Assembly (NCBI GenBank): GCA_017601145.1
Contig: JAFNIV010000014.1
Coordinates: 1-43,914, forward strand
Direction: 5' to 3'
Length of the DNA stretch: 43,914 nt
From: Candidatus Brockarchaeota archaeon
GTDB lineage: Archaea > Thermoproteota > EX4484-205 > JAAOZO01
Positions 4,449 through 43,914 of the stretch are shown piece by piece. Each line of letters begins with the position of its first letter. The stretch's first letter is position 1. A model generated the notes under the pieces. That model did no database searches and was not told where the DNA came from. It was given only the letters and a program-made list of their open reading frames with translations. The position numbers were made by a program, and so were the translations under genes.

Positions 4449-5578
4449 GTGAACTACCCCTCGCTATCGCAAGGGGCTTCCAGCATAGGCTGGTTATGGG
4501 CTGGTTCACAGACAGCCCCGTCTAAGGGCATGTAGCCCAAAGACCTCTCGAAACGCTTAGCTATGTTTATGGCTCCGTTTAGGTCTGCGTTGTATTCTCC
4601 GCAGTAGGGGCAAAGGAAGAGTCCTTGAGTTTTTCTTTTTCCTTCACGCCCACAGATATGGCATATGGTTGAGCTATAAGCTTCACTTATGGTAATTACT
4701 GGTATTCCTTCTAGCATGGCTTTATATTCAATCATTTTCGTTAGGCGAAAGTATGGCATGTTGCTGACTATTCTGTTTAAGCGTTTGCCTTTAACTTGTT
4801 TTCTAATTCCCTTGAGGTCTCCCAAGACAATGTAAGAGTTGGTTGCAAGGGCGAAGCTGACTATCCATTTGCTGACTCGATGAAGGATGGTATTAACCAC
4901 CCTTCTCTCCTTGCTTCCAACTCTCTTTACGACTTGGGTTAGACCTCTTTCTTGAAGCCTTCTGCGGAGCCATGCGTAATGGCGTCTAACTCCTCTTATC
5001 TCCTTGCCGAGAAATTGAGCTTTCATCACGGTTCCATTCTGCCAAAGCACCGCAGTGGCAGGGAACCGCTCACCCAAATCCACAGCAAGGATTGAGGAGC
5101 ATCTACGCACAGGTGGAGCATCAAACTCGAAGGTTAGCATAGCGATATAGCGGTCTTTCCTCTTAACTATTTTACTCTCGCAAAGTTTTCCTTGCGGGAA
5201 TTCTCTATGAGGTTTTACTGGAACTTTTATTCCGCCCCTAACACCATAGACAGGGATTTTTAGAAACCAGAAAGCCTTAGCTCTTTTAAGATTAATCAAA
5301 TCATTTCTAAGACTGAGAGGATATTCCTTTTGTTTTACTTTCTTGTAGTACCTAATAGCCTGCTGTTTGTTTGCTGAATACAACGGAACAGTTTTATCAC
5401 CACTTAAGAACCTTTGGAGGTTTGTGTATTCCCTATCAAGAATTTCCTTTTTCCTTCGAGTCAGCCCCACAATGCCCGCTTGGATAGTCAGCTTCATAGC
5501 AGGCTTTAACTAACTTTTTAGACATTTAAATCTTATCGCAATTCATCCCCGCCCTTTCAGACGGGGTCTTCTTGCGAG
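4449..5578 (-). mobile_element. IS200/IS605-type element carrying tnpB only; proposed right end GTAGTTCAC at 4449, left end next to TTTGAC near 5579-5584
   Basis: Intact tnpB; right end shared with repeats at 30959-30991 and 43746-43778; left-end motif GAAAG..GGGGATGAA...AAG.TTAAAT resembles the left end at about 30730-30766. Confidence 0.7.
4454..5497 (-). CDS. tnpB: RNA-guided endonuclease TnpB family protein (IS200/IS605 OrfB)
   Basis: RuvC-I AVDLGE (D140), RuvC-III YNADLNGAINIA (D305), zinc finger CHICG...CPYCG; RuvC-II position reads YIVLGDLKGI (G226). Confidence 0.93.
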   Translation of the reverse strand: MKLTIQAGIVGLTRRKKEILDREYTNLQRFLSGDKTVPLYSANKQQAIRYYKKVKQKEYPLSLRNDLINLKRAKAFWFLKIPVYGVRGGIKVPVKPHREFPQGKLCESKIVKRKDRYIAMLTFEFDAPPVRRCSSILAVDLGERFPATAVLWQNGTVMKAQFLGKEIRGVRRHYAWLRRRLQERGLTQVVKRVGSKERRVVNTILHRVSKWIVSFALATNSYIVLGDLKGIRKQVKGKRLNRIVSNMPYFRLTKMIEYKAMLEGIPVITISEAYSSTICHICGREGKRKTQGLFLCPYCGEYNADLNGAINIAKRFERSLGYMPLDGAVCEPAHNQPMLEAPCDSEG

Positions 5579-29213: not shown

Positions 29214-30593
29214 ATGAGCCGAGATGTACAAAATAGTACATTAAAGAACGAAAATGATAAATTCATATTTCTAGATCCAGAAGAGCTACCTACTTCTTGG
29301 TACAACATACAGGCAGACCTTCCAGAGCCATTACCGCCACCATTAGATCCAACAACCCTAAAGCCAATAAACCCAGAACTTTTAGAAAGAATATTCGCGA
29401 AGGAACTAATAAGACAAGAAGTTGCAACTGAACGCTACATCAAAATACCAGATGAAGTAATAGATGCCTATTTAAGACTTCCAAGACCTACCCCAATTTA
29501 TCGAGCTAAAAGACTTGAAAACTACTTAGGAACTCCTGCAGAAATTTACTTTAAATGTGAGAACTTTAGTCCAACCGGTAGTCATAAAACAAATACTGCT
29601 ATTGCTCAAGCATATTACAACAAAAAGCAAGGAACTGAAAGATTAGTAACAGAAACAGGCGCAGGACAATGGGGGACGGCCTTAGCTCTAGCAAGCACAA
29701 TTTTTGGATTAAAATGCAGGATTTACATGGTTCGCGTAAGTTACCAACAAAAACCAGGTAGGAGAATAATTGCACAAACTTATGGAGCTGAAATCTTCCC
29801 ATCACCAAGCGATCAAACAGAATTTGGCAAGAAGTTACTTAAAGAAAATCCAAATCATCCAGGGAACTTGGGTATAGCAATCAGTGAAGCTATAGAAGAT
29901 ACATTAACACACGAGAATACAAGATACTCTTTAGGATCTGTACTAAATCATGTTTTGCTACACCAATCGATAGTTGGCTTAGAAGCAAAAAAACAATTTG
30001 AAAAGATTGGCAAGTACCCAGATATTGTTGTTGGTTGTATAGGTGGAGGATCCAACTATGCGGGATTGGCTTACCCATTTATGGAAGATAAACTAAAAGG
30101 TAAAAGTGAAGCTGAGTTTGTTGCTGTAGAATCGAAGGCCGTACCTCATACAACTAAAGGAGTTTACACTTATGATTATGGGGATTCTGCAGGACTAACG
30201 CCACTTCTCAAGATGTTAACCATTGGACATACATATGAAACGCCACCAATCCATGCTGGAGGCTTAAGGTATCATGGAATGGCCCCCTCAATTTCATACC
30301 TTATATATAAAAACTACATGCGTTCTGTAGCTTATCACCAAACTGAAGTCTTTGAAGCTGCAAGAATACTAGCTAAGACAGAAGGTATGATTGCAGCTCC
30401 AGAAACAGCGCATGCTATAAAGTTTGTTATAGACGAAGCACTACGTTGTAAGAAAACAGGAGAAAAGAAAATAATATTGATGAACTATTCTGGGCATGGT
30501 CTGCTTGATCTATCGGCTTATGAATCGTACCTTGCAGGTAAACTTGTAAACTATGAACCAGAAAAAATTGAAGTTCCACAATTTAGTTACTAA
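29214..30593 (+). CDS. trpB2: Tryptophan synthase beta-like protein (TrpB2 type)
   Basis: Long N-terminus typical of TrpB2, NFSPTGSHKTNTAIAQAYY PLP Lys, TETGAGQWGTALALA, CIGGGSNYAG. Confidence 0.93.
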   Translation: MSRDVQNSTLKNENDKFIFLDPEELPTSWYNIQADLPEPLPPPLDPTTLKPINPELLERIFAKELIRQEVATERYIKIPDEVIDAYLRLPRPTPIYRAKRLENYLGTPAEIYFKCENFSPTGSHKTNTAIAQAYYNKKQGTERLVTETGAGQWGTALALASTIFGLKCRIYMVRVSYQQKPGRRIIAQTYGAEIFPSPSDQTEFGKKLLKENPNHPGNLGIAISEAIEDTLTHENTRYSLGSVLNHVLLHQSIVGLEAKKQFEKIGKYPDIVVGCIGGGSNYAGLAYPFMEDKLKGKSEAEFVAVESKAVPHTTKGVYTYDYGDSAGLTPLLKMLTIGHTYETPPIHAGGLRYHGMAPSISYLIYKNYMRSVAYHQTEVFEAARILAKTEGMIAAPETAHAIKFVIDEALRCKKTGEKKIILMNYSGHGLLDLSAYESYLAGKLVNYEPEKIEVPQFSY

Positions 30594-30645: not shown

Positions 30646-30754
30646 TTGCCAGTATCTTCTACTAACTTTTTTTCTCTTTTTTGTACACTTAATGTCTTTT
30701 TTAACTTTGATGGCGGGAAGTCTTCTTGCGAAAGCTGGGGGATGAAAGCCGAAA

Positions 30755-30764
30755 AGCTTATATT
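30755..30764 (+). promoter_or_regulatory. Putative archaeal TATA/box A (AGCTTATATT) for the ncRNA at 30786
   Basis: TATA-like sequence about 25-30 nt before the start of the GC-rich block. Confidence 0.5.
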
Positions 30765-30785
30765 TTTCTCATTATATCTATCATC

Positions 30786-30991
30786 GTCTGCTTGGCTGGA
30801 AGGGCTGGCAGACCTAGTAGGCATGGGACAGGCCGAAAGAGACGCCTGCTGAGGGCAAGACCTCCGTAACCCACCTTCCACACGGGTTCCTCGAAACGGC
30901 CTCACTTGCCGAGGCCTCCGCTGTGGGTGAGTGGAGATCGAGTCTGTCCGTGGAAGCAGGAAGCTCCTTGCAATAGCGAGGGGTAGTTCAC
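30786..30991 (+). ncRNA. Putative stand-alone omegaRNA-like structured ncRNA (scaffold; any guide would follow 30991)
   Basis: GC-rich island in AT-rich DNA; pairs AGTAGGC/GCCTGCT (30816-30822/30844-30850), GGACAG/CTGTCC (30826-30831/30944-30949), ACCCAC/GTGGGT (30869-30874/30923-30928), GGCCTC/GAGGCC (30898-30903/30911-30916), CTCCTTGC/GCGAGGGG (30964-30971/30976-30983); second copy at 43746+. Confidence 0.6.
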
Positions 30992-31067
30992 ATATTCTAA
31001 GAAACGCCTATTCTAAAGTTTGATACGACCAAAAAAAGAGTAAAACTATCTAGATCAAGTTTTTTGC

Positions 31068-32531
31068 TTACTTCCCAAAATTAAACAAAAACTTTACAAA
31101 GAACTTATGCGCAATGTCTATTCCAGAGACATACTTGTTTCCCTTAATTACAATATACTCGTTTGGACTATGAGCTCTAGCACCATGCCCTAAACCCAAG
31201 TGAACAGCAGGAGCTTCTAAAACGTCATTAAATAAGTACATGGGTGCACTTCCTGCTGTTAGAGGCCAGATTTCAACATCTTTGTTAAAGGAATGGATTG
31301 AAGAAATTACTGCTTGCACTACTGGATGATTTACACTCGTTTTACTCCATTTATAACCATTTAGCTGTCTTATTTCAATATCATTATACCCACGATTATC
31401 TAGATGTCGTCTTATTAGTGAAATTATTTTATTCGGATCATTTTGATTTGGAACTAATCTAACATCAACTTTACATGTTGCCTTATGTGGAAGAACAGTT
31501 TTAGACCCTGGCCCAATATAACCAGACCAGATTCCATCTATGTTAAGAGTTGTACTGAAAAGGAATTTCTTAAGAAGATTGTACTTATCGTTTTCATCAA
31601 AGATAAATTCTTTTACTTTAAGCGTTTCTTTTATCTTTTCTGGTTCAAAACTTTTTGCTAACTCTTTCAACAACTTTTCATCTTCTTCAGATGGTTCAAC
31701 AACATCATCATAAAATCCATCAATTGTTATTGTTCTTCCATTGTCTTTTGCCATTGTTGAAAGAGCATCGATTAGTCTCCATGTAGGACTATCAATCCAA
31801 GCTTTGTTACTAGAGTGTATATCGAATTCTATGGGTCCTTTTCCCCAGTTCTTACCACTGGCCTCAAGTTCAAAGTAAACAATTCCTTTGTTTCCTAGAG
31901 AAAGCTTTACTTTACCCCAAGTATCTTCTAAGAAGCTTGGAAATATTGTTGCCTTTGCACCTTTAAGCTTATTTTTATACTCGTTAACAAAATCTGGAAG
32001 ATGCGGGCTACCAAGCTCTTCTTCTCCTTCTGCTATAAACTTAAGATTTACTGGGAGCTTTCCTAAAGTACTAACTATAGCTTCTACTGCATTTATAAAA
32101 GTTATGAGCGGCCCTTTTGTATTTATACTTCCTCTACCAATGAGAGCACTAACTTTTCCAGAAGGTAAATCCAATGGAACTATGTTTGCTTCAAAAGGTG
32201 GTGAAACCCAAAGTTTTTCATCGTCAACAGGCTGCGTATCGTACATCATATAAACTAACAAGGTTGTTTCTGCATTCGAATCAAGCTCAGCATACACAAC
32301 AGGATGCCTTCTTGTTGGAACAATCTCCACATTTTGGCAGCCAATTTTTTTAAAATAACTCGCAAGTAACTTTGCAGCTTCTTGTACGCCTCTATTTTCA
32401 GCACTTATACTTGGTTGTCTTACGAATTCTTGGATTCGTGATACAAATCTGTTTAGGTTTTGATCTATATAGTTGTAAACTAAGTTGATTTCAGATTCCT
32501 TTGGCATAGAGCGTAAAGCATAAATAACCAC
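31068..32531 (-). CDS. M20 family metallopeptidase (dipeptidase/ArgE-DapE-like)
   Basis: MMYDTQPVDDEKLW, IGRGSINTKGPLITFINA, FIAEGEEELGSPHL, LGLGHGARAHSPNEY. Confidence 0.9.
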   Translation of the reverse strand: MVIYALRSMPKESEINLVYNYIDQNLNRFVSRIQEFVRQPSISAENRGVQEAAKLLASYFKKIGCQNVEIVPTRRHPVVYAELDSNAETTLLVYMMYDTQPVDDEKLWVSPPFEANIVPLDLPSGKVSALIGRGSINTKGPLITFINAVEAIVSTLGKLPVNLKFIAEGEEELGSPHLPDFVNEYKNKLKGAKATIFPSFLEDTWGKVKLSLGNKGIVYFELEASGKNWGKGPIEFDIHSSNKAWIDSPTWRLIDALSTMAKDNGRTITIDGFYDDVVEPSEEDEKLLKELAKSFEPEKIKETLKVKEFIFDENDKYNLLKKFLFSTTLNIDGIWSGYIGPGSKTVLPHKATCKVDVRLVPNQNDPNKIISLIRRHLDNRGYNDIEIRQLNGYKWSKTSVNHPVVQAVISSIHSFNKDVEIWPLTAGSAPMYLFNDVLEAPAVHLGLGHGARAHSPNEYIVIKGNKYVSGIDIAHKFFVKFLFNFGK

Positions 32532-43745: not shown

Positions 43746-43914
43746 GTGAACTACCCCTCGCTATCGCAAGGAGCTTCCTGCTTCCATGGACAGACTCGCT
43801 CTCCACTCACCCACAGCGGAGGCCTCGGCAAGTGAGACCGTTTCGAGGAACCCGTGTGGAAGGTGGGTTACGGAGGTCTTGCCCTCAGCAGGCGTCTCTT
43901 TCGGCCTGTCCCAT
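43746..43914 (-). ncRNA. Second copy of the tnpB-less, omegaRNA-like element, truncated by the window end
   Basis: By eye about 4 substitutions over 169 nt versus the reverse complement of 30823-30991; same right end GTAGTTCAC. Confidence 0.65.

Follow-up and report, generated by a model that had tools for sequence, protein, structure and literature searches.

Gene-less IS200/IS605 elements, omegaRNAs and the miniature element SMN1 are already known. IscB systems have been mentioned as having omegaRNA loci that act in trans, and TnpB is thought to prevent transposon loss by cutting the empty site. ISC1733 presumably belongs to the IS200/IS605-type family. It mobilises SMN1, a Sulfolobus islandicus MITE of ~320 bp (PMC3718332). 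SisTnpB1 of S. islandicus employs the TAM TTTAA, and its guide is taken from the sequence past the right end (PMC10640517). In S. solfataricus, the RNA-257(1-4) species are transcribed and derive from the 3' end of tnpB; they possess promoters of their own, with an inverted repeat ahead of box A (PMC3674436), and can be regarded as a published precedent for the transcription of such RNAs. A covarying family of stand-alone TnpB-type guide RNAs on archaeal MITEs was not reported in the literature that we searched, most subscription papers lying outside that search; nor did that literature yield any account of archaeal omegaRNAs that are stand-alone or non-autonomous.

Our analysis concerns a window of 43,914 nucleotides, namely positions 1 to 43,914 of the forward strand of the Candidatus Brockarchaeota archaeon contig JAFNIV010000014.1 (GCA_017601145.1). 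The original prediction placed here a GC-rich island at 30786-30991, preceded by a TATA-like box. The island is present at that position and ends in a hairpin plus GTAGTTCAC, and the TATA-like box is CTTATA at 30757-30762. The alignment of the copies in the same genome revealed that this RNA part is enclosed in a 292-bp non-autonomous IS200/IS605-type repeat at 30700-30991. Judging from translations, the island is preceded by a tryptophan-synthase-beta-like gene, which ends at 30593, and followed at 31068-32531 by a peptidase-like gene of opposite orientation. The features are listed below, where R1 is a covariance model built from twelve stand-alone sequences, none from tnpB, and C1 is the contig with the sole tnpA-tnpB element of this genome.

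4454 to 5497, minus strand: TnpB ORF of 347 aa, with its right end at 4449-4484; PF07282 at 64.9 bits, R1 at only 24 bits
30700 to 30991, plus strand: whole non-autonomous IS200/IS605-type element, 292 bp; constant among the aligned own-genome copies, whose flanks differ
30700 to 30704, plus strand: TTTAA at the left end, putative target site and TnpB TAM, identical to the SisTnpB1 TAM (PMC10640517)
30711 to 30751, plus strand: left-end hairpin; 88% over 69 bp to the C1 tnpA-tnpB element
30757 to 30762, plus strand: TATA-like box CTTATA, its centre 26 nt before 30786
30786 to 30813, plus strand: 5' hairpin, as folded; predicted RNA 5' end at ~30786
30815 to 30991, plus strand: omegaRNA-like scaffold of 177 nt, model R1; 109.9 bits, being itself an R1 training sequence, with independent homologues in existence
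30820 to 30834, plus strand: H1 hairpin with a conserved UGGGAC-type loop; two-sided change in 3 of 3 pairs, also found in tnpB-embedded RNAs
30845 to 30960, plus strand: H2, CCTGCT 30845-30850 with AGCAGG 30955-30960; innermost pair weak, conserved in tnpB-embedded RNAs
30853 to 30949, plus strand: H3, 30853-30866 with 30939-30949; two-sided change in 6 of 11 pairs, 93.5% of cells paired
30871 to 30934, plus strand: extended arm H4-H6, 30871-30874 with 30931-30934, 30878-30885 with 30918-30926, and 30898-30903 with 30911-30916; two-sided change in 11 of 18 pairs
30963 to 30984, plus strand: right-end hairpin, within the right end terminating in GTAGTTCAC; two-sided change in 6 of 7 pairs, 95% identity to the C1 right end
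30992 to 31011, plus strand: putative guide, the host flank straight after TTCAC, placed here from TnpB omegaRNA biology; the flank differs per copy
43746 to 43914, minus strand: second element copy, cut by the window end; 97.6% identical, 90 bits with R1

BLAST places the repeat at 40 sites of the draft genome (1.62 Mb, 86.5% complete), many of which are contig ends where the repeat has broken the assembly, and 24 copies exceed 106 bits with the RNA model, so that the genome holds at least 24 full-core copies. The copies start with TTTAACTT and end with GTAGTTCAC, while their flanks are unrelated and show no duplication. TTTAA begins nearly all left ends in the genome and most of those in relatives. 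As in other IS200/IS605 MITEs, nearly all complete copies have TTTAA(C) on their left and show no target duplication, and the element has the ends of an autonomous tnpA element but no transposase ORF. The first 69 bp (88%) and the last 43 bp (95%) match the C1 element, and the middle (about MITE positions 68-249) shows no similarity to tnpB DNA by BLAST; the locus is therefore a tnpB-less IS605-type element, as originally proposed. A TATA-like stretch precedes the C1 tnpA just past the left hairpin, the same place as that of the box in the MITE. With the left end and the promoter-like box placed as in C1, the MITE seems to have arisen by internal deletion, which would have brought the left end and promoter directly before the omegaRNA and the right end. 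In 8 of the 31 copies with a left end, the loop of the left hairpin (window 30715-30743) is inverted, CCAGCTTTCGCAGG replacing CTGCGAAAGCTG, as though by a flip of the palindrome. The genes on either side of the window element lie on different contigs in the only congener, and no empty site was readable there.

Our comparisons with R1 support the identification of the RNA as a stand-alone omegaRNA, since they reveal its homology to the scaffold at tnpB 3' ends. Although built without tnpB sequences, R1 recognises the 3' ends of three tnpB genes in this genome at 59-68 bits (E 1e-11 to 1e-13), and tnpB ends in many other genomes; part of these scores is owed to the shared right end. The tnpB-embedded RNAs have H1 with the UGGGAC-type loop, a GCCUG:CAGG helix, the right-end hairpin and GGTAGTTCAC in common with the stand-alone RNAs. 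The locus displays two hallmarks of a TnpB omegaRNA, a scaffold homologous to the tnpB 3' end plus right end and a conserved secondary structure. The position of the putative guide beyond the right end would be compatible with this class, and the flanks vary among copies. The identification of the interior as an omegaRNA scaffold is supported most directly by two chimeric MITEs (L124:229-348 and L125:89-208), in which a tnpB-type core has been swapped in at the homologous place, between CCTGCTGAG and GAAGCAGG, while the 5' hairpin, H1 and promoter-like box of the MITE are kept. These chimeras suggest that sequence has passed between MITE and tnpB elements by recombination or copying. A search for unrelated families such as SRP and RNase P, a match to which would have told against the identification, returned none of the 4227 families of Rfam at gathering or relaxed thresholds. 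A 25-nt match of window 30793-30817 (MITE 94-118) in two other genomes was set aside, as it corresponds to MAGRAGRPRYD (motif VI region) in a Hel308/Ski2-like helicase gene and is probably due to chance.

The structure is upheld by covariation, the test that had been proposed for it. In alignment A2, a sequence-only alignment of 28 stand-alone RNAs with a lowest pairwise identity of 49%, the seven-helix structure has 91.9% of cells paired, and 27 of its 45 pairs show two-sided change. Two-sided compensatory cells number 185, compared to 65 in shuffles, which do not keep relatedness, and at most 50 in slid controls, over which the structure is somewhat favoured because it was drawn with the window sequence visible. 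The size of this difference and the variety of pair types, such as GC, CG and UA at one pair, make covariation by chance implausible. Plus-strand G-U cells (94) outnumber A-C cells (38), both being under their shuffled means (133 and 85), and this excess fits an RNA of the plus strand. The folding energy gave z = -0.97 for the plus strand and +0.37 for the minus strand, and the minimum free energy is not significant. The long-range helix of the original prediction, GGACAG 30826-30831 with CTGTCC 30944-30949, did not hold, as it is paired in 63.4% of cells compared to 64.5% in shuffles, and its 3' arm belongs to another helix, which does covary.

A promoter of its own had also been suggested for the element, and the spacing of the box agrees with this. 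Using a TATA weight matrix and hairpin starts set by hand, we found a TATA-like hexamer 24-30 nt upstream of the 5' hairpin of the RNA in all 24 stand-alone elements measured, and the spacing is kept although the 5' hairpin region ranges from 0 to 43 nt. The hexamer is weak in a few elements (L169, L173), and in 8 of the 24 a better-scoring one also occurs 36-44 nt upstream, in the left hairpin. The spacing may thus be taken as supporting, though not decisive, evidence of a promoter. In Sulfolobales elements the 5' hairpin lies at the same position with a different stem sequence. In a Borrarchaeum subtype (L104, L109, L112, L115, L118, L121, L122), ~70 nt are added between the TATA-like box (at about -97) and H1, apparently forming a longer 5' domain.

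The element probably takes its mover and its cutter from complete elements elsewhere in the genome. The only intact-looking Y1 transposase of the genome is the C1 TnpA, which has the HFH motif and a C-terminal Tyr. The C1 TnpB (L040) retains the RuvC D, E and D residues and lacks all zinc-ribbon cysteines, and the 3' end of its gene scores 59 bits with R1. The TnpB at 4.5 kb, named earlier as the user of this RNA, is a doubtful one in light of its 24 bits with R1 and the LGDL in RuvC-II. This protein (4454-5497) has a CxxC zinc ribbon, and where the usual RuvC-II motif is E-N/D-L it reads LGDL, such that it is possibly nuclease-dead or has a relocated residue. The MITE end matches this locus over 36 bp (92%), and only the right end is in common. 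The C1-type TnpB shares both ends with the MITE and, on sequence grounds, is therefore the likeliest partner in this genome and a better candidate than the TnpB at 4.5 kb. Since the stand-alone core is unlike the tnpB type and carries a ~55-nt extra arm, the local TnpBs may not bind it. C-termini similar to that of the C1 TnpB recur elsewhere (L172, L183, L214, L221).

The RNA is not confined to this genome. Stand-alone homologues occur in other families of the phylum; R1 matches 52 of 401 Thermoproteota genomes, from 35 genera, and a DNA-pattern search found tnpB-less homologues in the Asgard archaea Borrarchaeum and Sifarchaeum and in one Methanomethylicota genome. Among 60 loci that we read, a tnpB ORF never ends in the ~175-nt form with the long extra arm, while many end in the shorter forms. 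In three Asgard genomes (G401-G403), all 69 strong stand-alone copies (at least 95 bits, 118-125 nt) are without an adjacent tnpB, whereas 30 of the 32 copies of a longer form (65-95 bits, 140-151 nt) lie immediately downstream of a tnpB zinc-ribbon match, several ORFs at the latter measuring 427-436 aa and ending inside the right end. The element is also found, unannotated and ~320 bp long, on the S. islandicus plasmids pARN4 and pHVE14, as well as in Acidianus tailed spindle virus and IMG/VR contigs. On the viral contigs (L229-L233 and Acidianus tailed spindle virus), stand-alone copies number from one to several, and their flank-derived guides would match viral sequence. In two Methanomethylicota loci (L111, L184), an inserted stretch separates the conserved core from the right end. 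Among 13 carrier or related genomes, PF07282 (tnpB) is present in 12 and a Y1 tnpA in 8; a Y1 tnpA was not found in the MITE-bearing genomes G202, G144, G035 and G007, nor was a tnpB in G035. Some MITE copies are therefore relics.

Taken together, we consider it likely that this is a gene-less miniature IS200/IS605 element carrying a stand-alone omegaRNA as cargo and using TnpA and TnpB in trans. By analogy with known TnpB systems, the RNA would be transcribed from the TATA-like box through the right end and processed, its last ~16-20 nt being flanking host DNA. A TnpB made elsewhere would bind the MITE RNA and cut TTTAA plus the guide sequence, which is the empty site that would remain once TnpA excises the element, and repair from an intact copy would restore the MITE. 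Since TTTAA lies at the left, and TTCAC followed by variable flank at the right, the RNA of each copy would guide TnpB to its own empty site. TnpA in trans would thus serve movement, and TnpB in trans retention. A broader proposal holds that trans-acting omegaRNAs form a long-lived lineage of their own, apart from those embedded in tnpB and borne on promoter-equipped MITEs across Thermoproteota, Asgard archaea and their plasmids and viruses, with RNA-guided retention via a borrowed TnpB; on this our judgement is evenly divided.

The RNA might instead be a decoy that titrates or mis-targets TnpB, giving the MITE an advantage over complete elements even though its own empty site is not productively cut. 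The excess of stand-alone copies over tnpB-linked ones (69 to 30 in the three Asgard genomes), the different inner core and the extra arm would suit such a role, but the right-end hairpin, the TTCAC junction and the TTTAA left end are all kept and would be unneeded for a decoy effect, although TnpA needs the ends; we regard this possibility as unlikely. A transposon-derived antisense or other host-regulatory RNA, pairing with mRNAs, has a model in RNA-257(1-4), which comes from the ISC1904 tnpB 3' end and for which an action in trans on the 1183 mRNA has been reported (PMC3674436). That conservation lies in a scaffold of several helices and not in a pairing sequence, and that dozens of copies have unrelated flanks, renders this role very improbable here.

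It is also conceivable that the element acts only as DNA, its hairpins serving TnpA in single-stranded form and any RNA being incidental. IS200/IS605 transposases are established to need left- and right-end hairpins, and the inverted left loop in eight copies points the same way. Nevertheless, H2-H6 covary away from the ends, plus-strand G-U cells exceed A-C cells (94 to 38), and the promoter-like box is spaced relative to the 5' hairpin of the RNA, leaving a purely DNA-level role with a very small probability. Simple decay of a functionless tnpB fragment would accord with the lack of an open tnpB frame inside and with some carriers being devoid of tnpA or tnpB, yet it is hardly credible for a sequence that shows compensatory change over 28 members down to 49% identity and recurs in Asgard archaea.

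If MITEs do bring their own guide RNA, as in the trans-acting omegaRNA reading that we prefer, these parasites of parasites would exploit the homing nuclease as well as the transposase, which would help to explain the dozens of copies of such elements. Thermostable TnpB enzymes would also gain guide scaffolds that are separate (trans) by nature and bear extra arms, and repeats so far unannotated in Sulfolobales plasmids, viruses and Asgard genomes would become guide RNA genes. S. islandicus, with its established TnpB biochemistry and genetics, allows direct testing.

Among the described elements, SMN1 resembles ours in its host group, its lack of genes and, presumably, its dependence on an IS200/IS605-type transposase, the Sulfolobales element agreeing with it in size and host; SMN1 is described as a non-autonomous element, and the description consulted does not mention a guide RNA (PMC3718332). 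RNA-257(1-4), likened here to the MITE RNA by description, differs in that it was assigned to ISC1904, which has a resolvase gene, and was read as an antisense RNA. PATEs and other IS200/IS605-type MITEs have palindromic ends and no genes, like this element, and we know of no stand-alone RNA from them. With the TnpB omegaRNA or reRNA of ISDra2 and SisTnpB1, the MITE has in common H1, the GCCUG:CAGG helix, the right-end hairpin, TTCAC followed by variable flank, and TTTAA at the left end. It differs from them in having no upstream tnpB and a promoter-like box of its own. Moreover, the inner core of most MITE copies is distinct (CCTCCGTAACC...GATCGAG), and those in Thermoproteota add the ~55-nt extra arm.
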